Assembly: GCA_025353165.1 (NCBI GenBank)
Contig: JANXRE010000136.1
Span: 1 to 64,000, forward strand
DNA length: 64,000 nt
Reading direction: 5' to 3'
Source of the DNA: Acidobacteriota bacterium
GTDB taxonomy: Bacteria > Acidobacteriota > Terriglobia > Bryobacterales > Bryobacteraceae
Below, one piece after another: positions 45,711 to 56,514 of the stretch (the first letter of the stretch is position 1; the number at the start of each line of letters is the position of its first letter). The translations under genes were made by a program, and so were the position numbers. The notes under the pieces are model-generated. The model was not told the DNA's origin and searched no databases. It worked only from the letters and a program-made list of their open reading frames with translations.

Positions 45711-45803
45711 CGAAAAATGGGGACAGACAGCCTTTTCCGCCAGAGTGCGAACATAGAGTCGAAAGGTTACAGCGGCGGAAAAGGTGTCTGTCCCCATTTT
45801 TCG
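45711..45803. mobile_element. MITE/REP-like inverted repeat
   Basis: Two arms (45711-45741 and 45774-45803) are reverse complements except for one extra G in the left arm (30 of 31). They flank a 32-base centre. Arms contain ATGGGGACAGACA, a sequence often seen around REP-associated transposase elements. The transcript would form a long hairpin. The right arm contains the GTG start of the downstream kinase. Confidence 0.75.
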
Positions 45804-47202
45804 GTCTCTCTTGTCGCTGGCGGCCGTCGCGGTCGTGACGGTCGCCGCGTTCAAGCTGATTCCAGTCAACGCGACCACGGTGGGGTTCGCGTACCTTCTG
45901 CTGGTTTTGATCGTTGCGACAGCCTGGGGTTTCGCGGAGGCCGCCGTCGCCTCGGTGGCGGCCACGCTCGCGTTCAATTTTTATTTCCTGCCGCCGATCG
46001 GAACCCTCACGATCGCGGACCCGCAAAACTGGATCGCTCTTTTCAGCTTCCTGGCCGTCGCGCTGACCGCGAGCCGGTTGTCTGCCATAGCCAAACGGCG
46101 GGCGTTGGACGCGATCGAGCGGCGCAACGACCTCGAGCGCCTCTACACGTTCAGCAGAGCCATCCTGTTGATCGATACTGGCGAACCTTTCGCCCTGCAA
46201 CTGGTTCGGAGAATAGCCGAGGTCTTCGATGTGAGCGCCGCGGTGCTGTACGAGCGGCGGACCGGCGAGGCCTACCGGGCCGGGCCCTCGGATTTCGACG
46301 GCCTCGAGGACCAGATTCGCGAAGCGGCCATGAGCGGAAGCGCGTACTCCGACCCCGGCGGGCATCGCGTGATCACTGCGATACGGCTCGGCTCCCAGCC
46401 GATTGCCAGCCTCGCCTTGCAAGGACCGCGAATGGCGGATCCCGTCGTGCAGGGGATTGCCAATCTCGTTGCCATCGGGTTGGAGCGCGAGCGTGCGCAG
46501 GATCTGGCCCATCAGGTTGAGGTCGCCAAGCAAAGCGAACAACTGCGCACCACACTGATTGACGCCATGGCCCACGAGTTCAAGACGCCTTTGACTTCTA
46601 TCAAAGCGGCGACGACTTCCTTGCTGGCCAACCCCGGCCAGCCCGCGGAAAGCAGGGATGAGCTGGTGAGAATCGCGGACGAAGAAGCGGAGCATTTGCG
46701 CGAACTCATCGACGACGCGATTGAGATGGCGCGATTGGAAATCGCACAGATCGAGCTTCACCCCGAGATCGCAAGTCTCGCCGATCTGGTTCGGGAGATC
46801 GCCGCATCCATGCAGATCGAGATGGATGGGCGGCCGCTGGAGATTGCGTGCGACCCCCAACTTCCAAGCGTTGCGTTCGACCGCAGGCTGCTCAAACTCG
46901 CCATCCGGCAGTTGGTCGATAACGCGCTGAAATACTCGCCTTCGGGAACGCCGATTGCATTTCGCTTGAGCGAAGCTGGCGGCGGCGTCCTAATGGAAGT
47001 TACGGACTATGGCCAAGGAATACCGGTGAAAGAGCAGAGTCGTATCTTCGATCGCTTCTACCGAAGTCTCTCGGTCCGGGAGCAGATTCCCGGATCGGGA
47101 CTCGGCCTCAGCATCGCCCAGAGCATCGTCCGCGCGCACAAGGGCGATCTGGCCGTGACCAGCCGACCCGGCGAAACGACGTTCCGCGTAACTCTGCCAT
47201 GA
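45784..47202 (+). CDS. kdpD: KdpD kinase half (no N-terminal sensor domain)
   Basis: 472 residues corresponding to the C-terminal part of KdpD. Four hydrophobic segments of a DUF4118 module (about 10-105), a GAF-like domain (about 125-235), HisKA with H264 in DAMAHEFKTPLTSI, and HATPase with QLVDNALKYSPSGTP, TDYGQGIPV and GSGLGLSIAQSIV. The usual N-terminal Walker-type sensor and USP domains are absent here and are encoded separately at 54406 and 55444. The GTG at 45784 and first residues MSVPIF come from the inverted-repeat element, so the true start might differ. Its stop overlaps kdpE (ATGA). Confidence 0.9.
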   Translation: MSVPIFRSLLSLAAVAVVTVAAFKLIPVNATTVGFAYLLLVLIVATAWGFAEAAVASVAATLAFNFYFLPPIGTLTIADPQNWIALFSFLAVALTASRLSAIAKRRALDAIERRNDLERLYTFSRAILLIDTGEPFALQLVRRIAEVFDVSAAVLYERRTGEAYRAGPSDFDGLEDQIREAAMSGSAYSDPGGHRVITAIRLGSQPIASLALQGPRMADPVVQGIANLVAIGLERERAQDLAHQVEVAKQSEQLRTTLIDAMAHEFKTPLTSIKAATTSLLANPGQPAESRDELVRIADEEAEHLRELIDDAIEMARLEIAQIELHPEIASLADLVREIAASMQIEMDGRPLEIACDPQLPSVAFDRRLLKLAIRQLVDNALKYSPSGTPIAFRLSEAGGGVLMEVTDYGQGIPVKEQSRIFDRFYRSLSVREQIPGSGLGLSIAQSIVRAHKGDLAVTSRPGETTFRVTLP

Positions 47203-47897
47203 GCGCGGGCCGAATACTGGTCGTTGACGATGAACCGCAGATCCGGCGCATCATGCGGACTACGCTGACGGGCGCGGGATACGAAATCGACGACGCGAAG
47301 ACCGGCGAAGAGGGGTTGGAGAAGCTGCGGGTGTTTCGGCCGGACCTCGTATTGCTCGATATCAATATGCCCGGCATGGGCGGACTGGCTGCCTGCAGGG
47401 TCATGAGGACGAACGCGACAGTAGCCATCATCATGTTGACGGTTCGCAACTCCGAGGCGGACAAGGTGCACGCCCTGGATGCCGGAGCCGACGATTTCAT
47501 TGCCAAGCCGTTCAGCACGCCGGAGCTTCTGGCGCGCATTCGCGCGGCCCTGAGGCGGGTTCCCGTTCCTTCCACGGCGCCCGCGAAGATCCGGATAGGC
47601 GATCTGTCCATCGACTTTGCGGCCCGAACGGTGGCGACCGGTTCGACGACTACCCACCTGACACCCAAGGAACTCGAGTTGCTTCGATACCTCACCCAGC
47701 ATTCAAACGAAGCCGTTTCGCATCGCGCGCTGCTGCAAGCCGTGTGGGGGCCCGACTACGGAGACCAGGTCGACTACCTGCGGGTCTTCATAAAGAACCT
47801 GAGGAAGAAGATCGAGGCTAACCCCGAGCATCCGGAGTACATTACCACCGAGCCCTGGGTAGGCTATCGCTTCAACGGACCGGTTGAGTCTTTATAA
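47199..47897 (+). CDS. kdpE: KdpE response regulator
   Basis: 232 residues of the OmpR family. Receiver with VVDDEPQIRR, phosphoacceptor D54 in LLDINMPGMGG and lysine in IAKPFSTPELLARI. The winged-helix domain contains LTPKELELLRYLTQHSNEAV, a KdpE-like stretch, and VDYLRVFIKNLRKKIE. It overlaps the kinase gene by four bases. It should activate the kdp operon that starts about 70 bases downstream when potassium is low; a TATAAA stretch lies at 47893-47898. Confidence 0.94.
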   Translation: MSAGRILVVDDEPQIRRIMRTTLTGAGYEIDDAKTGEEGLEKLRVFRPDLVLLDINMPGMGGLAACRVMRTNATVAIIMLTVRNSEADKVHALDAGADDFIAKPFSTPELLARIRAALRRVPVPSTAPAKIRIGDLSIDFAARTVATGSTTTHLTPKELELLRYLTQHSNEAVSHRALLQAVWGPDYGDQVDYLRVFIKNLRKKIEANPEHPEYITTEPWVGYRFNGPVESL

Positions 47898-47968
47898 AAT
47901 CTTCACGCCTTTTCCATTACTTCTTCAGGCCCTTCTGCCTAATCTCAATTGTGGGAGTGCTAGACGAA

Positions 47969-48412
47969 ATGTCCCTTGCGATGGAGAAGACCATTGTGCC
48001 GGCGCCCCGCCAAAGCAGGGAGGCGGCGCTGAGTATTACGGTCGTCTTTACGTCCGCTCGCGGGACTTCCGCGGCACTGAAGAGCGCGGCCGCTCTCGCT
48101 GATACGCTGAGCGCCAGCATTTCCCTGGTAGTCTTGCAGGTCGTGCCCTACCCCTTGCCGCTCGCCAGCCCGCCGGTGCTGCTCGATTTCAGCGAATCGC
48201 AGGTTCGGGCCATCGCCGAGGAGAGTCCGGTGGAGACGACGGTTCTTCTGTATTTGTGCCGCGACGCGCAGGTAACGTTGCCCATGGTTTTGAAGCCGCG
48301 TTCTCTCGTGGTTATCGGCGGGCGAAAGCGCTGGTGGCCAAACCCCGAACGGAGCCTGGCGAGGCGTCTGCGCCGGGCTGGCCATGACGTCATCTTCACT
48401 GAAACGGAGTAA
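47969..48412 (+). CDS. Small USP-like protein of the kdp locus
   Basis: About 147 residues (a GTG at 47951 could add six). Alternating hydrophobic strands such as ALSITVVFTSARGTSAALKS, ISLVVLQVVPYPLPL and RSLVVIGGRKRWWPNPERSL suggest a Rossmann-like USP fold. The ATP-binding G-2x-G-9x-G(S/T) signature is not clear. Similar domains form part of KdpD. It starts the transcript that carries the Kdp pump and may be a detached regulatory domain. No close family is recognised. Confidence 0.55.
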   Translation: MSLAMEKTIVPAPRQSREAALSITVVFTSARGTSAALKSAAALADTLSASISLVVLQVVPYPLPLASPPVLLDFSESQVRAIAEESPVETTVLLYLCRDAQVTLPMVLKPRSLVVIGGRKRWWPNPERSLARRLRRAGHDVIFTETE

Positions 48413-48417
48413 CTTTT

Positions 48418-48501
48418 ATGCTGGATGCTATCTATGTTTCGCTAGGTTGCGTGTTCCTCTATCTATGCTGGGCCTTCACAAAGGCCTGTGACAAGTTGTA
48501 A
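48418..48501 (+). CDS. 27-residue single-span membrane peptide upstream of kdpF
   Basis: ATG 48418 to TAA 48501 encodes MLDAIYVSLGCVFLYLCWAF plus a TKACDKL end: one hydrophobic helix with a charged C-terminal tail. GGAG lies eight bases before the start, and the stop codon is embedded in the kdpF ribosome-binding site, so translation of the two is linked. Size and topology resemble KdpF, but the sequence differs. A stabilising subunit or regulator of the pump is a reasonable guess. Confidence 0.6.
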   Translation: MLDAIYVSLGCVFLYLCWAFTKACDKL

Positions 48502-48511
48502 GGAGACCTAA

Positions 48512-48595
48512 ATGGATTACATCATTGCCGGGATTGCGGCTCTAGGGCTGTTCATCTATTTGATTGCCGCGCTGCTGCGTCCGGAGAAGTTTTAA
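48512..48595 (+). CDS. kdpF: KdpF, small subunit of the K+-transporting ATPase
   Basis: 27 residues: [20 protein letters not shown] followed by LLRPEKF. One membrane helix ending in the conserved LLRPEKF/xYPExF-type tail. KdpF stabilises the KdpABC complex in the inner membrane. AAGGAG at 48500-48505 lies seven bases ahead, and kdpA starts four bases after the stop. Confidence 0.88.
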
Positions 48596-48599
48596 CAAC

Positions 48600-50369
48600 A
48601 TGACTAGCCTAGGTATTGCCCAAATTGCGCTGTTCTACGTGTTGATTCTCGTCTGTGTCAAGCCGTTAGGAGCTTACATGGCGACAGTATTCGAGGGTAA
48701 GCGCACGTTCCTCCATCCGGCCCTGCGCTGGCTGGAGGTGTTGACTTACAAGGTGATGGGCGTCAAGCCAGATGTCGAACAGCGCTGGACTCAATATACG
48801 GCGTCCCTGATCAGCTTCAGCATTTTCGGATTTCTCATCGTATACCTGCTGGAGCGCGCTCAGGCTTATCTGCCGTTCAACCCGCAAAACTTCGGTACGC
48901 CGAACGTCACTCCCGATCTTGCTTTCAACACGGCAGCAAGCTTCATCACGAACACGAACTGGCAGTCCTACTCGGGAGAGTCGACGTTCAGCTACCTGGT
49001 GCAGATGGCGGGTCTCACCGTTCAGAACTTCGCGTCCGCGGCAGCCGGAATCGCGATCGCAATCGCGGTGGTGCGAGGTTTCGCCCGGCAGGAGCAACGG
49101 ACTATCGGCAACTTCTGGGCCGATGTCACGCGAGCCACTGTGTATGTTCTCCTGCCCCTGTCGATTATCAGCGCATTGTTCCTGTGCTCCCAGGGCGTGA
49201 TTCAAAACCTGAAGCCTTATACCACCGTGACCACCGTCGAGGGCGCTAAGCAGACGATTGCACAGGGTCCGGTCGCCTCACAGGAAGCGATCAAGGAACT
49301 GGGCACGAACGGGGGTGGTTTCTTCAATGCGAATTCCTCGCACCCGTTTGAGAACCCGACCCCTCTCACTAACATGTTCCAGATGTTTCTGATCTTCTTG
49401 ATCCCCGGAGCGTTGACTTACACGTTCGGACGGATGGTGGGAGATACCAGGCAGGGTTGGGCCATCTTTGCCGCATTCTCTGTGATGTTCCTGATCGGTG
49501 TCTTTGTCTGCTATGGGTTTGAGCAGGCGGGTAACCCGATATTAGGAAAGCTCGGGATCCAGACCGCTTCCACGGCAGGACAGGCTGGCGGCAACATGGA
49601 AGGTAAAGAGGTGCGGTTCGGCATCGCGAATTCAGCTCTCTTTACAACTGTGACAACAGATGCCAGTTGCGGCGCGGTCAACAACGCCCACGACAGCCTG
49701 ACACCCATTGCCGGCCTGGTTCCGATGTTCAACATCATGACCGGCGAGGTTATTTTTGGAGGCGTGGGTGCTGGGCTGTACGGCATTCTCCTTTACTGCA
49801 TTGTCGCGGTGTTTATAGCAGGTCTAATGGTGGGGCGCACACCCGAGTATCTCGGCAAGAAGATCGAGCAGAAGGAGGTGAAGATGGCGATGCTGGCCAT
49901 CATCGCGACCGCCGTAAGCATTCTCGTCTTTAGCGGCATCACCTCCGTTATTCCGTTCGCGAAGAACGGGTACTGGAATGCCCCGGGCGCTGCGATCGCA
50001 AACCTCACCAATAACGGCCCGCATGGTTTCAGCGAGATTCTGTATGCGTACGTAAGCGCGACCGGTAACAACGGCAGCGCTTTCGCAGGCCTGAGCGCGA
50101 ACACACCCTGGTACAACCTGACTCTGGGCATCGCCATGCTCATGGGCCGCTTTCTTTTTCTGATACCGCTGTTAGCGGCCGCAGGTAGTCTGGCTGCCAA
50201 GAAGAAGATTCCGGTTACGAGCGGAACATTCCCGACCCACGGTCCGCTGTTCGTCGGCCTGCTCGTCGGCACGGTTCTCATCGTCGGCGCACTCACTTTT
50301 TTCCCGGCGCTTTCGCTGGGACCCATCGTCGAGCATTACCTGATGCAAAGCGGCAGAATTTGGAGCTGA
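48600..50369 (+). CDS. kdpA: K+-transporting ATPase subunit A
   Basis: 589 residues of polytopic membrane protein that selects and channels K+. Selectivity-filter-like loops include [50 protein letters not shown] and [20 protein letters not shown], each with the family glycines. Start [12 protein letters not shown] at 48600 is selected over an upstream frame that runs through kdpF. It is the second step in a kdpFABC order. Confidence 0.97.
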
Positions 50370-50370
50370 T

Positions 50371-52497
50371 ATGTCAACTACCGTAAAAGAGCCAAAAGCT
50401 GTTATGACAGGTCAGGATGACGCGACGTCCCTCCTCCCGAAGAAACTGGCGCACTCCCGCCCGCTTTTCGACCGGGAAATTGCGGGCCGTGCCGTACGCG
50501 CGTCCTTTGCGAAACTGAATCCCGTCACGCTGCTGCAGAACCCGGTGATATTCGTCGTGGAAGTCGGGGCCGTACTCACGACCGGTTTCCTGATTCGCGA
50601 CGGGTTCACGGGCGCGGGAGGGGTCGTCTTTTCTTTTCAGATCGCGCTATGGCTCTGGTTCACGGTGCTGTTCGCCAACTTCGCCGAGGCGATGGCGGAG
50701 GCGCGAGGGAAAGCGCAGGCGGACAGCTTGCGGAAGACGAAAACAGACGCGCTCGCCAAGCGCGTCACCGCTTCCGGAAAGATCGAGCAGGCCCTGAGCT
50801 CAGCGCTGCGCTCCGGCGACGTCGTCGTTTGCGACGCCGGCGATCTGATTCCCGGGGATGGCGACGTGATCGACGGCATTGCCACCGTCGATGAATCGGT
50901 GATCACCGGCGAGAGCGCACCCGTGATTCGAGAGTCCGGCGGCGACCGTAGCGCAGTCACCGGAGGCACTCGCGTGCTTTCCGATCACATACGAATCAGA
51001 ATCACTTCGAATCCGGGGGAGACGTTCCTGGATCGCATGATCGCTCTGGTCGAAGGCGCGGAGCGGCAGAAGACGCCGAACGAAATCGCTTTGAATATCC
51101 TCATCGCCGGACTGACGCTGATCTTCCTGCTGGCCGTCATCACGCTTCAACCTTTCTCGGCTTTCGCGGTCGCGCAGGCAGGTTCCGGCCAGATCCCGAG
51201 CGTCGCGGTTCTCGTGTCGCTCCTGGTCTGCCTCATCCCGACGACCATCGGCGGACTGCTCTCAGCCATCGGCATTGCCGGCATGGATCGCGTGATGCAA
51301 CACAACGTACTGGCGATGAGCGGCAAGGCAGTGGAAGCCGCGGGAGACGTGAACTCGCTGTTGCTGGACAAGACCGGAACGATCACCCTCGGCAACCGGC
51401 AGGCGGTCGAGTTTCTCCCGGCGCCTGGCGTAACCGACGCCGAGCTAGCCGACGCGGCACAGCTTTCAAGCCTTGCGGACGAGACTCCCGAAGGCCGCTC
51501 GGTGGTCATTCTGGCCAAGGAAAAGTACAGTCTGCGGGGCCGTCATATCCCGGAGGACGAGGCGACGTTCATCCCGTTCTCCGCGTACACCCGGATGAGT
51601 GGAGTGGACCTGCAGGGCAGGCAGCTTCGAAAAGGAGCGACGGAGGCCATCTGCAAATTCGTAATTGAGCGCGGCGGCGATGTCCCCCGTTCCTTCCAGG
51701 AAATGAGCGATCGCATTTCGAGGAGCGGAGGAACTCCGCTGGCCGTCGCGGAGGGCAGCCGCGTGCTGGGGATCATCCACCTGAAGGACATCGTTAAGGG
51801 CGGAATGAAGGAGCGCATCGCTCAACTGCGCCGCATGGGCATCCGCACCGTCATGATTACGGGCGACAACCCGCTGACGGCGGCAGCCATTGCGGCCGAG
51901 GCCGGCGTGGACGATTTCCTCGCCCAGGCCACGCCCAAGGACAAGCTCGAATACATCCGCAAGGAGCAGGCGGCCGGCCGGTTGGTCGCCATGACGGGGG
52001 ACGGAACCAACGACGCTCCGGCGCTGGCTCAAGCCGACGTCGGCCTGGCGATGAATACGGGCACCATGGCAGCTAAGGAAGCGGGTAACATGGTTGACCT
52101 GGATAGCAATCCCACCAAGCTGATCGAGGTGGTGGCCATCGGAAAGCAGTTGCTGATTACGCGCGGCGCGCTGACCACGTTTTCGATTGCAAACGATATC
52201 GCCAAGTACTTCGCAATTATTCCCGCGATGTTCATGGCGATGTATCCCGCGCTCGGCAAGCTGAACATCATGGGATTGCATACGCCGCAAAGCGCGGTGC
52301 TGGCGGCGGTGATCTTTAACGCGCTGATCATCATCGCCCTGGTGCCGCTGGCGCTGCGAGGCGTGAAATACCGTCCGCTCGACGCGGCCAGTCTCCTGCG
52401 GCGCAACCTGCTCATCTACGGCGTCGGTGGAATTATTGCTCCGTTTCCCGGCATCTGGGTCATCGACCAGTTGTTGGTACTGCTTCACCTCGCATAG
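50371..52497 (+). CDS. kdpB: K+-transporting ATPase subunit B (P-type ATPase)
   Basis: 708 residues. Actuator loop VITGESAPV (about 177-186) includes the serine phosphorylated in E. coli KdpB. The catalytic aspartate is D333 in [11 protein letters not shown]; hinge motif [20 protein letters not shown]. Membrane helices contain [17 protein letters not shown] with the coupling region. Complete and normal in length. It begins one base after the kdpA stop. Confidence 0.98.
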
Positions 52498-52508
52498 GAG
52501 AAATCACA

Positions 52509-53090
52509 ATGTGGCAACAAATCCTGCCCGGGCTTCGACTCAAGGTCTTCATGACCGTCCTGCTCGGCGTTATTTATCCGCTGGCGATCACCGGCATTTG
52601 CCAGGTCCTGTTTCCTTACAAGGCCAACGGGAGCCTCATAGAATCCGGCGGGAAAGCGATCGGCTCCGAGCTGATCGGCCAGAATTTTGCGAAGCCGTGG
52701 TACTTCCAGCCTCGCCCGTCGGCGGCGGGCAATGACGGATACGATGCGACCGCGTCCACGGGATCGAATTTCGGCCCGACGAATCAGAATCTGATCAAGC
52801 GCGTCCAGACGTCCATTGAGAAGTTCCGGAAAGAGAATCCCGATTACACAGGGTCTCTCCCCGCCGATTTGCTTACGGCGTCGGGCAGCGGCCTCGATCC
52901 GCACATCAGTCCAGCGTCGGCCCTGGCGCAGGCGCCGCGCGTGGCGAAGGCCCGCGGCATCGGGATGGACGAGGCGAATCGGCTGATTTCCCGGTTCGCC
53001 GAAAAGCCGGATCTGGGAATCCTCGGCGAGCCCCGAGTGAACGTTCTGCTACTAAACTTGGCCCTCGACCGCGAATATGGCGGTAGATAA
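52509..53090 (+). CDS. kdpC: K+-transporting ATPase subunit C
   Basis: 193 residues. One N-terminal membrane helix (about 12-32, VFMTVLLGVIYPLAITGICQ) and a periplasmic domain with FAKPWYFQPRPSA, NFGPTNQNLIKRV, PADLLTASGSGLDPHISPAS and VNVLLLNLALD. AGGAG at 52497-52501 precedes the ATG. The chain is complete. Confidence 0.97.
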   Translation: MWQQILPGLRLKVFMTVLLGVIYPLAITGICQVLFPYKANGSLIESGGKAIGSELIGQNFAKPWYFQPRPSAAGNDGYDATASTGSNFGPTNQNLIKRVQTSIEKFRKENPDYTGSLPADLLTASGSGLDPHISPASALAQAPRVAKARGIGMDEANRLISRFAEKPDLGILGEPRVNVLLLNLALDREYGGR

Positions 53091-53097
53091 TACCCGC

Positions 53098-54402
53098 ATG
53101 CGGAAGTACGGAATGGCTGTAGCGTTATTGTCGGCGTCTCTCTTATCTCAAACCCCAAACGACCCGAAACAGGAAATCGCTGAATTGCGCGCGATTGTTA
53201 AACAACTACAGCAACGGATCGACGACCTGGAAGCGAGGGTAACGCCTGCTAAGGCGGAAGCGCCGACTCCGAGCGTGGCAACCAGCCCCCTTCACGGCAC
53301 GACCTTGAATTTTCTGCTGGACGGGTATTATGGCTACAACTTCAACGCTCCGATCGGGCGCGCCAATCTCTTGCGGGCATACGACGTCACCAGTAACGGA
53401 TTCAGCCTGAATCAATCCGCCATCGTCATCGAAAACGCGCCCGATCTCTCGAAGGGCAAGCGCTTCGGCGCCCGTCTCGACCTTCAATTCGGGCAGGCTA
53501 GCCAGTCGACGCAGGGGAATGCGGCGAACGAACCGCGACCCTGGATATACCGCAATGTGTTCCAAGCTTATGGAACTTACATTATTCCCGCGGGCACGGG
53601 ACTCACCGTAGATTTTGGTAAGTGGGCCAGCTCCCTGGGCCTGGAAGGTAACTACACGCAGGACCAGATGAATTACTCCCGGTCCTATTGGTTCGGTTTC
53701 CTCCCGTACTATCACATGGGCTTGCGGGCCAATTATAAGTTGAACGATCGGGTGGGAGTGAATTATTGGATCACCAACGGCACGAACCAGACGGAGCCGT
53801 TCAGCGGATTTAGAGACCAACTCTTTGGGTTGACGCTTGCGCCGCATAAAACCATCAACTGGACCATGAACTACTACCTCGGCCAGGAGCACCCGGACGC
53901 CATCTTCTTCGCCAATCCAGGCCAGCCGAACCTGCCGCAACTGCAAGGGCTGCCGTTCCAGCCCATTCCGAACTCGCCGACGGGCCGCCTCCACATCCTC
54001 GATTCCTACGGCACGTGGGCGCCTTCGGCGAAGCTCACCTTCGCTCTCGAGGCGGATTATGTCCTGCAGCGCCTAGCCACCAATTCACCTCCCGCGCATA
54101 CGATCGGCGGAGCCGTTTACGCCAGATACCAGCTGACACCCAAATTCGCGCTCGCCGGACGAGCCGAGTATTTTTCCGATCGTGGCGGGCTTTTTAGCGG
54201 CGCTACCCAGGCTCTGAAGGAATCTACTCTGACCTCTGAGTACAAATTCGCCCCAGGCTTCCTGATACGGGGAGAATGGCGTCGGGATTTCTCCAACCAG
54301 CCCTTTTTTCTGACGTCCAGACAAGGCGTTCTAAAGAAGGAACAAAACACTGCGACGTTGGGTGTAGTCTTGTGGTTCGGCCAGAAGGAGGGTGCCTGGT
54401 AG
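53098..54402 (+). CDS. Outer-membrane porin of the kdp operon (BBP2-like)
   Basis: About 434 residues. Signal peptide MRKYGMAVALLSASLLSQ, then a short coiled coil (KQEIAELRAIVKQLQQRIDD). The barrel follows: LNFLLDGYYGYNFNAPIGRA, FGKWASSLGLEGNYT, SRSYWFGFLPYYHMGLRANY, matching putative beta-barrel porin-2 proteins. It ends VLWFGQKEGAW. An ATG at 53077 inside kdpC is possible, but 53098 starts the signal peptide. Directly after kdpC, it may let K+ cross the outer membrane during scarcity. Confidence 0.75.
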   Translation: MRKYGMAVALLSASLLSQTPNDPKQEIAELRAIVKQLQQRIDDLEARVTPAKAEAPTPSVATSPLHGTTLNFLLDGYYGYNFNAPIGRANLLRAYDVTSNGFSLNQSAIVIENAPDLSKGKRFGARLDLQFGQASQSTQGNAANEPRPWIYRNVFQAYGTYIIPAGTGLTVDFGKWASSLGLEGNYTQDQMNYSRSYWFGFLPYYHMGLRANYKLNDRVGVNYWITNGTNQTEPFSGFRDQLFGLTLAPHKTINWTMNYYLGQEHPDAIFFANPGQPNLPQLQGLPFQPIPNSPTGRLHILDSYGTWAPSAKLTFALEADYVLQRLATNSPPAHTIGGAVYARYQLTPKFALAGRAEYFSDRGGLFSGATQALKESTLTSEYKFAPGFLIRGEWRRDFSNQPFFLTSRQGVLKKEQNTATLGVVLWFGQKEGAW

Positions 54403-54405
54403 GCG

Positions 54406-55440
54406 ATGAATTCCGGAATACGGCGCAGGACGCCCGACGAGTTGCTGCGCGAGGCGCAAGCCGAGGAGGCCGCCAGCACCAGGGGGCGGCTCAAGATTTT
54501 TCTCGGCTATGCGTCTGGCGTCGGAAAATCGTTTCGAATGCTGGATGAGGCGCGCCGGAGGCGGGAGCGCGGTCAGGATGTCGTCGTCGGGGCCGTTCAG
54601 CCCGAGCCTCCCCCCGAAGCCGCGGCCCTTCTCCAAAGAATCGAGATCGTGCCGCTGAAGGGGACCGCCATCGATTTGGAAACGCTCCTGCGCCGGCGCC
54701 CGGGAGTCTGCTTTATCGATGGATTGGCGTATGACAATCCTGCCGGATCCCGCAACCCGACCCGCTGGCGCGACGTTGAGGAACTGCTGAACGCGGGGAT
54801 CTCCGTCGTTTCGTCCATTAACATTCACTACGTCGAGGAACTGCGCACGCAGATTGAGGAGATCTCGGGGAAACGTGTCACTCAGACAGTCCCGGTCTCT
54901 TTTCTCAAGAGCGCCGATGAGATCGAGATCGTCGACGCCCCACCCGAACGCGAACAGCGGTTGTCAAGATTAAGGGAACTAGCCCTGCTACTGGCCGCCG
55001 ACGTTGTCGATCACCAATTGACGGAGTACCTGAGATGCCACGGCCTCGAGCAGAACTTCGGCACCCACGAGCGCATCCTGATATGCATTACGCCGCGCGC
55101 GAATGCTACCGAGATGATCGAGACGGGCAGGGCCATCGCCGACCGCTTTCATGGTGAACTGATGGTGGCCTATGTCACCCAGTCGGACATCACCGCTTCG
55201 GACCAGGCTGCGCTGGAGGAAAAACTGACGGCAGCTCGAGCCGCCGGCGCAAGCATCGAGATTCTGGAGGGTGAGGACCCCGTGGACGCGATTCTGGAAT
55301 TCGCCCAGTCGCGCGGCATTACGCAATTGTTCATCGGACACAGCCAGCGCTCCGGTATCTGGTCCCGCCTGCTGGGGAACCCGGTGGACAACCTGATCCG
55401 CCGGGCGCGTTCCATCGACGTGAGGGTCTTTCCTCAATAA
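54406..55440 (+). CDS. KdpD sensor half, copy 1 (degenerate Walker B)
   Basis: 344 residues with the KdpD N-terminal domain (about 27-235) and a USP domain (about 240-344). Walker A: GYASGVGKS at 34-42. The Walker-B-like motif, usually DELAHTNAPGS, is FIDGLAYDNPAGS here, so the glutamate after D105 is glycine. RWRDVEELLNAGISVVSSIN and VDHQLTEYLR are recognisable. The USP part ends FIGHSQRSG. There is no kinase domain. It probably works with the separate kinase half at 45784 or as an independent nucleotide sensor. Confidence 0.85.
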   Translation: MNSGIRRRTPDELLREAQAEEAASTRGRLKIFLGYASGVGKSFRMLDEARRRRERGQDVVVGAVQPEPPPEAAALLQRIEIVPLKGTAIDLETLLRRRPGVCFIDGLAYDNPAGSRNPTRWRDVEELLNAGISVVSSINIHYVEELRTQIEEISGKRVTQTVPVSFLKSADEIEIVDAPPEREQRLSRLRELALLLAADVVDHQLTEYLRCHGLEQNFGTHERILICITPRANATEMIETGRAIADRFHGELMVAYVTQSDITASDQAALEEKLTAARAAGASIEILEGEDPVDAILEFAQSRGITQLFIGHSQRSGIWSRLLGNPVDNLIRRARSIDVRVFPQ

Positions 55441-55443
55441 CAG

Positions 55444-56514
55444 ATGCAGGAAGAACGCGGAAAGCTGCGAATCTATCTTGGGTACGCCGCCGGCGTGGGG
55501 AAAACCTATCAGATGCTGGAGGAAGCCCAGGATTTGAAAACGCGCGGCATCGACATTGTGATCGGCTATTTTGAGCCTCATGGCCGCAAAGACACGATCG
55601 CTAAGACCGAAGGCTTGGAATTTGTTCCCAGAAAGAAGGTGCAGTACCGGGAATCCGTCTTCGAGGAAATGGATACCAACGCAATTTTAAACAGGCGTCC
55701 GCGGGTGTGTGTCGTGGACGAATACCCCCATACCAATGTTCCAGGTTCCGAACGCGTCAAGCGTTGGGAAGATGTTGAGATCCTGCTCGCCGCTGGTATC
55801 GACGTTCTCGCCACCATGAACATTCAGCATCTGGAGAGTTTGAACGACCAGGTGGGGCACATCACGGGCATTCGAGTGCGGGAGACGATTCCGGACTGGG
55901 TAGTGGAACGGGCGGACGAAGTGGTGATGGTGGACGTCACCCCCCGGGCGCTGCTAAACCGTCTCCAGCGCGGGGTCGTTTATGGACCGGAAAAAGCGGA
56001 GCGCGCGTTACAGAATTTCTTCCGTGAATCGACGCTGGTCGGCCTGCGCGAGCTCGCCTTGCGGCAGACGGCGCACGAAGTTGAGAAACACGAGGTCCGC
56101 GGTCCCGAGCCGAAACATCGGAAGATCGTTGTGTTGATCACGACGGACCCCGAAACCGCAATGTTGATTCGGCGGGCGAAGCGCGTCGGCGATTTTCTCA
56201 ACGCGGAGTGCTTTGCCGTCGCGGTCCAACCGTCGGGTGAACTCAGTCATTTGCCGCAGATCGAACGCGAGGCCCTCGAGCGCCACCTGAACTTCGCCCG
56301 AAATCTGCACCTGGTGACGAGGATCCTGGATGGTACGCAGATTGCGCCGGTGCTGGTCGATTTCGCGCGCCGAAATCAGGCTACGCAGATCTTCGTCGCG
56401 CGGCCTCGCGAATGGCGCCCGCTGTTCGCCCGCAACCTCGTTCAGCGGATCGTCGCTCTTGCCAAGGATATGCAGGTAGTCATCGTCGCGGGACGAGAGC
56501 CCGTCCTTCACTAG
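55444..56514 (+). CDS. KdpD sensor half, copy 2 (canonical motifs)
   Basis: 356 residues with the same architecture as copy 1. Walker A GYAAGVGKT at 13-21; VDEYPHTNVPGSERVKRWED near 91-110 keeps the acidic pair; NIQHLESLNDQVGHITGIRV and NFFRESTLVGLRELALRQTA are closer to classical KdpD. USP domain from about 230. It begins four bases after copy 1. It ends the kdp transcript. A 7-base-pair hairpin (56519-56537) follows, without a T-run. Confidence 0.88.
   Translation: MQEERGKLRIYLGYAAGVGKTYQMLEEAQDLKTRGIDIVIGYFEPHGRKDTIAKTEGLEFVPRKKVQYRESVFEEMDTNAILNRRPRVCVVDEYPHTNVPGSERVKRWEDVEILLAAGIDVLATMNIQHLESLNDQVGHITGIRVRETIPDWVVERADEVVMVDVTPRALLNRLQRGVVYGPEKAERALQNFFRESTLVGLRELALRQTAHEVEKHEVRGPEPKHRKIVVLITTDPETAMLIRRAKRVGDFLNAECFAVAVQPSGELSHLPQIEREALERHLNFARNLHLVTRILDGTQIAPVLVDFARRNQATQIFVARPREWRPLFARNLVQRIVALAKDMQVVIVAGREPVLH

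Follow-up and report, generated by a model that had tools for sequence, protein, structure and literature searches.

How is the potassium pump Kdp controlled when its sensor kinase KdpD comes in separate pieces, one of them in two copies? The question is raised by a kdp locus in the window, a 64,000-nucleotide stretch of contig JANXRE010000136.1 (assembly GCA_025353165.1) from an Acidobacteriota bacterium of the family Bryobacteraceae. In this locus the histidine kinase (HK) half of KdpD is encoded first and two N-terminal halves, which we call N1 and N2, are encoded last, with 7.2 kb between the end of the HK gene and the start of N1. The initial annotation had described this order, put the distance at about 7 kb and called the two N-terminal copies divergent, all of which holds: N1 and N2 share 31% identity over 352 alignment columns. 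It had also proposed a sensor with a choice of two input modules. Our best reading is that N1 and N2 are not a choice between equal input modules. We suggest that this is a split KdpD regulator in which the work is divided between two chains of the atypical serine kinase (ASK) type, N2 being the catalytic chain and N1 a pseudokinase and sensor partner. Judging from the sequences, we give this reading a probability of about 0.5. The parts of KdpD are the following, where USP denotes a universal stress protein domain.

45784..47202, + strand: HK half of KdpD, with DUF4118, HisKA and HATPase_c (Pfam; start codon uncertain)
54406..55440, + strand: N1, first N-terminal half of KdpD, a predicted pseudo-serine-kinase whose USP domain is conserved (Pfam, residues)
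55444..56514, + strand: N2, second N-terminal half of KdpD, which has the ASK catalytic residues and a USP domain devoid of the nucleotide glycine; predicted KdpB Ser162 kinase (Pfam, residues)

A split KdpD in a genome with no full-length KdpD found

The HK half matches DUF4118 (residues 9-112), HisKA (255-319) and HATPase_c (366-472) in Pfam and has no match to PF02702, which marks it as a separate HK chain. No GAF domain was matched at E 0.01, and DUF4118 is separated from HisKA by about 140 residues. A full-length KdpD elsewhere would have spoken against a sensor made from these parts. None was found when PF02702 was searched across all 200 contigs of the window genome (98.4% complete), the two matches being N1 and N2, both in short frames.

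A split KdpD is a known kind of arrangement, and the original studies are said to have been made in Alicyclobacillus and Anabaena. That the parts of KdpD are separate proteins is borne out, and no full-length KdpD was found, but the split is not new in itself, since it had already been published (PMC11018627). The Discussion of that paper describes split KdpD as most common in Acidobacteriota and Chloroflexota. Among 395 Acidobacteriota genomes, PF02702 has a match in 171 (154 above the curated cut-off), and among the matches listed part of the frames are 370-460 aa long (short chains) and part about 900 aa (full length).

A palindromic repeat (45716-45798), whose ends AATGGGGACAGAC lie about 70 bases apart, overlaps the called start of the HK gene. 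There are 28 copies of AATGGGGACAGAC in the window genome (16 forward, 12 reverse; 0 for the reversed control), several of them as facing pairs, and by its sequence character the palindrome is an element like a miniature inverted-repeat transposable element (MITE) or a repetitive extragenic palindrome (REP). Because the called GTG start at 45784 falls within this repeated palindrome, the first residues of the HK half are uncertain.

N2 retains the kinase residues and N1 has lost most of them

In E. coli, residues 1-230 of KdpD phosphorylate KdpB at Ser162 and inhibit the pump, and this phosphorylation is abolished by D109A, E110A, a Walker A mutant and W39A/R190A in KdpD (PMC11018627). Since the N-terminal half is a KdpB serine kinase in E. 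coli, N2 most likely phosphorylates KdpB Ser162, with the pump as its target, and does not serve solely as an input to the histidine kinase. What was earlier described as nucleotide-binding sensor halves thus has a serine kinase as its E. coli counterpart. The serine motif TGES is present in 57 of 58 KdpB matches over 700 bits, the window included; the exception (L143) is cut at the edge of the fetched stretch.

We examined 60 loci of the window's family and 20 loci of other families. The family loci all come from genomes where PF02702 matched at least twice, and they were chosen for their flanking DNA (thus non-randomly). Proteins were sorted into N1 and N2 by the best phmmer match to the window proteins, and the trees agreed. 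Residues are numbered after E. coli K-12 KdpD. Counts for the kinase domain cover 59 N1 and 82 N2-type sequences from the first 81 loci. Of the N2-type sequences, 61 are family N2; the other 21 are the N2 of L144 and 20 single short chains, which come from 19 loci.

In the window, N2 matches PF02702 over profile positions 2-210 (3.1e-92) and has Walker A, the Walker B Asp and Glu, and R190. N1 matches positions 2-175 of the 210 (1.7e-52) and lacks the full ASK residue set: Walker A and the Asp are present, the Glu has become Gly, the R190 region is absent and a stretch of about 25 residues towards the end of the kinase domain is missing. Across the loci, the Walker B Glu (E110) is found in 61/61 family N2 and 21/21 other N2-type chains. 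In N1 this position is G in 49 sequences, E in 7 and Q in 3, so that the Glu is lost in 52 of 59. R190 is present in 61/61 N2 and in 33/59 N1, and E61 is replaced by Q in 58 of the 59 N1, the remaining one being cut off. Over 20 positions chosen as conserved in N2-type proteins, N1 keeps 2-8 (the low value of 2 comes from the cut-off N1 of L111), and N2 with the outgroup keeps 19-20. Trp39, the adenine residue, is Tyr in N2, likewise in many outgroup chains. We therefore predict that N1 is a pseudokinase, which should not do ASK chemistry.

ATP binding by N1 is still expected, because the P-loop Lys (57/59; the exceptions are one Val and one cut off) and the Walker B Asp (D109, 59/59) are retained. 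This would also suit a reading in which the two chains act separately, N2 as the KdpB serine kinase and N1 as an ATP or nucleotide sensor for transcription, either controlling the phosphatase activity of the HK or stabilising phosphorylated KdpE on DNA. Residues 1-395 of E. coli KdpD are reported to stabilise phosphorylated KdpE with DNA (PMC2714519).

N1 is under purifying selection

Since N1 has lost most catalytic positions, it could also be a redundant or decaying duplicate without function. The sequence comparisons, however, place both N1 and N2 under purifying selection. For eight related pairs the dN/dS of the kinase domain is 0.036-0.168 in N1 versus 0.043-0.202 in N2, and that of the N1 USP domain is 0.027-0.417 in seven pairs (dS was saturated in the eighth); several other dS values are above 1 and rough, and some pairs come from one genome and are not independent. 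The N1 alignment has 42 invariant columns over 62 sequences, and N1 is an open frame of full length in all family loci with the pair but one (56 of 57; in L111 it is truncated at the contig end). The predicted structure of N1 (62 sequences) has a pLDDT of 90 and is most similar to 2r8r, the KdpD N-terminal domain, and 7ji4, the KdpD USP domain with c-di-AMP; the fold search and the sequence search agree. Because N1 is conserved, the decaying duplicate is strongly disfavoured, and we regard it as highly improbable.

The USP domains differ in the ligand pocket

The USP alignments hold 62 of 63 N1 (without L111), 63 of 65 family-type N2 (without L084 and L111) and 19 of 20 single short chains (one of the two in L143 was left out). 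In the window, N1 has a Pfam Usp match (1.3e-9) and N2 matches PF02702 alone. At E 0.01, Usp is matched by 51/62 N1, 14/63 N2 and 19/19 single short chains. In the USP domain of S. aureus KdpD (7ji4), Gly329 contacts the ribose (PMC8214093). This nucleotide glycine is present in 62/62 N1 and 19/19 outgroup chains, and in 16/63 N2. The N2 profile still matches 7ji4. Going by these alignments, the N2 USP domain is one with the fold retained and the pocket glycine mostly lost, and N1 is the copy that keeps the glycine. The USP domains are about equally divergent (mean pairwise identity 0.51 in N1 and 0.49 in N2), and the kinase domains have values of 0.59 in N1 and 0.68 in N2. At other USP positions, N1 has Tyr271 in 55/62 and Cys at 242 in 59/62, with Ser244 replaced by Thr in 57/62 and Ser246 by Arg in 53/62. 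The window genome has two matches to the diadenylate cyclase (DAC) domain.

The pair in other genomes

N1 lies immediately upstream of N2 on the same strand in 57 of the 60 family loci. The pair follows kdpC or the porin gene in 37 (hand count), precedes kdpA in 2 (L102, L103) and lies on the other side of HK-kdpE, in opposite reading, in 2 (L082, L092); kdpA is reversed in L095. The fetched stretch contains no kdpABC in 18 family loci, where several contigs end nearby, and kdpA is found elsewhere in 17 of these 18 genomes, with G521 excepted (hand counts). Another K+ transporter beside the pump-less pair was considered and rejected, because the neighbours of the loci scanned were of many kinds (among others cytochrome b, RND efflux, DUF885 and PSD/HXXSHH proteins) and because of these kdpA genes. 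Absence of the HK where the pair is present was also dropped as an idea: DUF4118 proteins are kept in 20/20 genomes tested, the KdpD-type HKs among them being unsorted.

The three loci without N1 (L087, L100, L109) all belong to the genus g261. In this genus HK, kdpE and N2 stand together in L087, L100 and L153, and N1 follows kdpABC and the porin gene in L148 and L152. Of the others, N1 is not by the pump in L149, the HK is not by N2 in L109 and L151, and the pair is intact in L092 and L114. The separation of N1 from N2 in part of the g261 genomes would be in keeping with separate roles, N1 serving transcription. Yet in these genomes N1 is the chain by the pump (L148, L152), with N2 beside HK and KdpE, and elsewhere the two remain neighbours even where the pump is located apart. 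We think separate roles unlikely.

The same loci bear on the proposal that the HK half binds N1 or N2 non-covalently, the two serving as alternative inputs, which would reconstitute a two-input KdpD. The position of N2 directly after HK and KdpE in the three g261 loci speaks for it, as do the DUF4118 proteins in all 20 tested genomes with N chains. On the other hand, the pair follows kdpC or the porin gene in 37 of the 60 family loci, the copies occur together and differ in their losses, and ASK function needs no HK (PMC11018627). We consider this assembly slightly less probable than separate roles. The choice of two input modules foreseen by the initial annotation likewise seems improbable, since the copies have lost different things and mostly stand side by side.

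The contigs most similar to the window N1 (the best 80 of 550 relatives, several of them family loci already sampled) are Acidobacteriota by title in 79 cases, many being Bryobacterales or Terriglobia. N2 is adjacent in 71, and is not adjacent by the gap limit in 8 (of which L214 has N2 in the locus); in 1 the contig ends. The Walker B residue is G in all 69 that could be read, 11 being unread by the pattern. Since these are the closest matches, the set leans to the window's clade.

Outside the family, a weak and a strong PF02702 match are neighbours in 7 of 18 further genomes (G225, G164, G187, G218, G059, G213, G240), and proteins from outside fall on both the N1 and the N2 sides of the trees (L144; L278-L283). 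Quick trees, built on subsets of 105 and 96 rows, place N1 in one clade and N2 in another, each with an SH-aLRT of 100. N1 and N2 of L279 have the same nearest relatives, as if the pair had possibly been transferred as a unit. The alternative is that contigs were misplaced in bins, which is less likely for G225 because this is a single-contig genome. G225, which belongs to another family, has an N1-N2 pair (L278) in which Pro replaces the Walker B Glu of N1, on a 19-kb stretch lacking kdpABC, and encodes a short KdpD elsewhere.

The rest of the locus and orf153

All genes of the locus are on the + strand, in the order HK half, kdpE, orf153, mini-ORF, kdpF-like, kdpA, kdpB, kdpC, porin, N1 and N2. 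Those not listed above are as follows.

47199..47897, + strand: KdpE-type response regulator, Response_reg and Trans_reg_C (Pfam; 4-base overlap with the HK gene)
47951..48412, + strand: orf153, small predicted USP-fold protein of 153 aa (without a Pfam match; predicted fold)
48418..48501, + strand: hydrophobic mini-ORF of 27 aa, directly upstream of the kdpF-like peptide
48512..48595, + strand: hydrophobic peptide of 27 aa, which by position and look we take to be kdpF-like
48600..50369, + strand: kdpA (Pfam; the called ORF begins at 48564)
50371..52497, + strand: kdpB, with the TGES motif bearing the regulatory serine, E. coli Ser162 (Pfam)
52509..53090, + strand: kdpC (Pfam)
53077..54402, + strand: BBP2-type beta-barrel porin (Pfam)

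For kdpA, the ATG at 48600, after the kdpF-like peptide, fits better as the start than 48564. The mini-ORF is possibly another small Kdp-associated peptide. Between kdpC and N1 stands the BBP2-type outer-membrane porin, and a related porin has the same place in some other family loci, among them L079, L110, L115, L118 and L122. The gaps between the porin gene and N1 and between N1 and N2 are 3 bases each, so these three genes are probably read together with the pump. Scans for promoters and terminators gave no excess over shuffled sequence (3 vs 3.5 and 13 vs 11.4).

Relatives of orf153 (at least 40 bits) are found in 39 other fetched loci, usually directly before kdpA, with 2 on the opposite strand; the alignment uses 38 of 40 matches, leaving these two out. 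No Pfam family fits; for Usp, with E allowed up to 0.1, 2 of 38 sequences match, the best at 0.066. The AlphaFold2 model of orf153 has a pLDDT of 89, and its best PDB match is 7ji4, the KdpD USP domain (E 1.6e-4, TM 0.51/0.60, rmsd 5.3). The model is of the USP fold, clear in kind and loose in fit. Profile comparison gives nothing against N1 (probability 0.8%) and a weak signal against N2 (25%), and the fold search alone is clear. E. coli UspC binds the USP domain of KdpD and scaffolds signalling in salt stress (PMC2714519). By analogy, orf153 may be a counterpart of UspC.

A working model and the points against it

We hypothesize that, when K+ is sufficient, N2 would phosphorylate the KdpB TGES serine and halt the pump. 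N1, able to bind ATP but catalytically dead, would bear the ligand-sensing USP domain and, as a partner subunit, gate N2. Transcription would be under the control of KdpE and the separate DUF4118 histidine kinase, the latter acting through sensing domains of its own, and orf153 would be a possible UspC counterpart in the kdp cluster. In its most specific form the model is tentative, and somewhat less probable than the division of work as such: N1 and N2 would be a two-subunit serine kinase in which N1 senses nucleotide and switches N2, both derived from one ligand-gated KdpD chain by complementary loss, and orf153 would be a third, USP-fold component.

Several observations weigh against this division of work. 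The Walker B Glu is retained in 7 of 59 N1, all inside one 10-row clade; in these seven, E61, H63, R65 and H113 are missing, as is most of the stretch around E. coli 197-210. The USP glycine is retained in the 16 N2 counted above, 15 of which also have Cys242. N1 does not match the published c-di-AMP motif (A/G/C)XSXSX2N(Y/F) (PMC8214093), being mostly C-X-T-X-R with N249 replaced, and N2 keeps less of it. The loss of the Glu in N1 and of the Gly in N2 are uncoupled per genome (Fisher p = 1.0, 57 pairs). The separation in some members of g261, with N1 by the pump and N2 by HK-kdpE, also fits a link of N2 to the HK. Finally, the pair is not universal in the family. Of 200 family genomes searched, 129 have PF02702, 104 with at least two matches and 25 with a single match, and in at least 18 of these 25 the match is in a long frame resembling full-length KdpD (hand counts). 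Because the losses per genome are uncorrelated, the division would have advanced unevenly among lineages: as far as the residues tell, it is complete in the window's lineage, not everywhere, and further in some lineages than in others.

Comparison with known systems

The serine kinase role of KdpD was reported in 2024, and its control by the other domains is called open there (PMC11018627). Since sensing and catalysis are seemingly separated onto two proteins here, each could be purified, mixed and mutated alone. If the division of work is true, this would be a pseudokinase case within the P-loop type of kinase. In the open-licence literature searched, we found no description of paired ASK-type chains. 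As far as the literature was searched, a predicted degenerate ASK-type chain beside an intact one thus appears to be new.

The closest known system is the split KdpD of Silberberg et al. 2024, for which the same phylum is named. It has the same two kinds of chain, its ASK chain (KdpD/Usp) likewise encoded downstream of the pump and its HK chain described as TM/GAF/DHpCA; in the excerpted text there is one ASK chain, whereas here there are two, one of them catalytically degenerate. Deinococcus radiodurans likewise has kdpD-N in the pump operon and the C-terminal half apart with a response regulator, but the excerpted text describes one kdpD-N, versus two here (PMC5716572). In E. coli the same domains are found, with the soluble USP protein UspC binding the USP domain of KdpD (PMC2714519); KdpD is there one fused chain, and here orf153 sits inside the kdp cluster. 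The short, c-di-AMP-controlled KdpD of Deinococcus geothermalis is also a KdpD and Usp chain without an HK (PMC11018627). There the active ASK and the regulated USP domain are in a single chain, whereas in the pair described here they are apparently divided over two.

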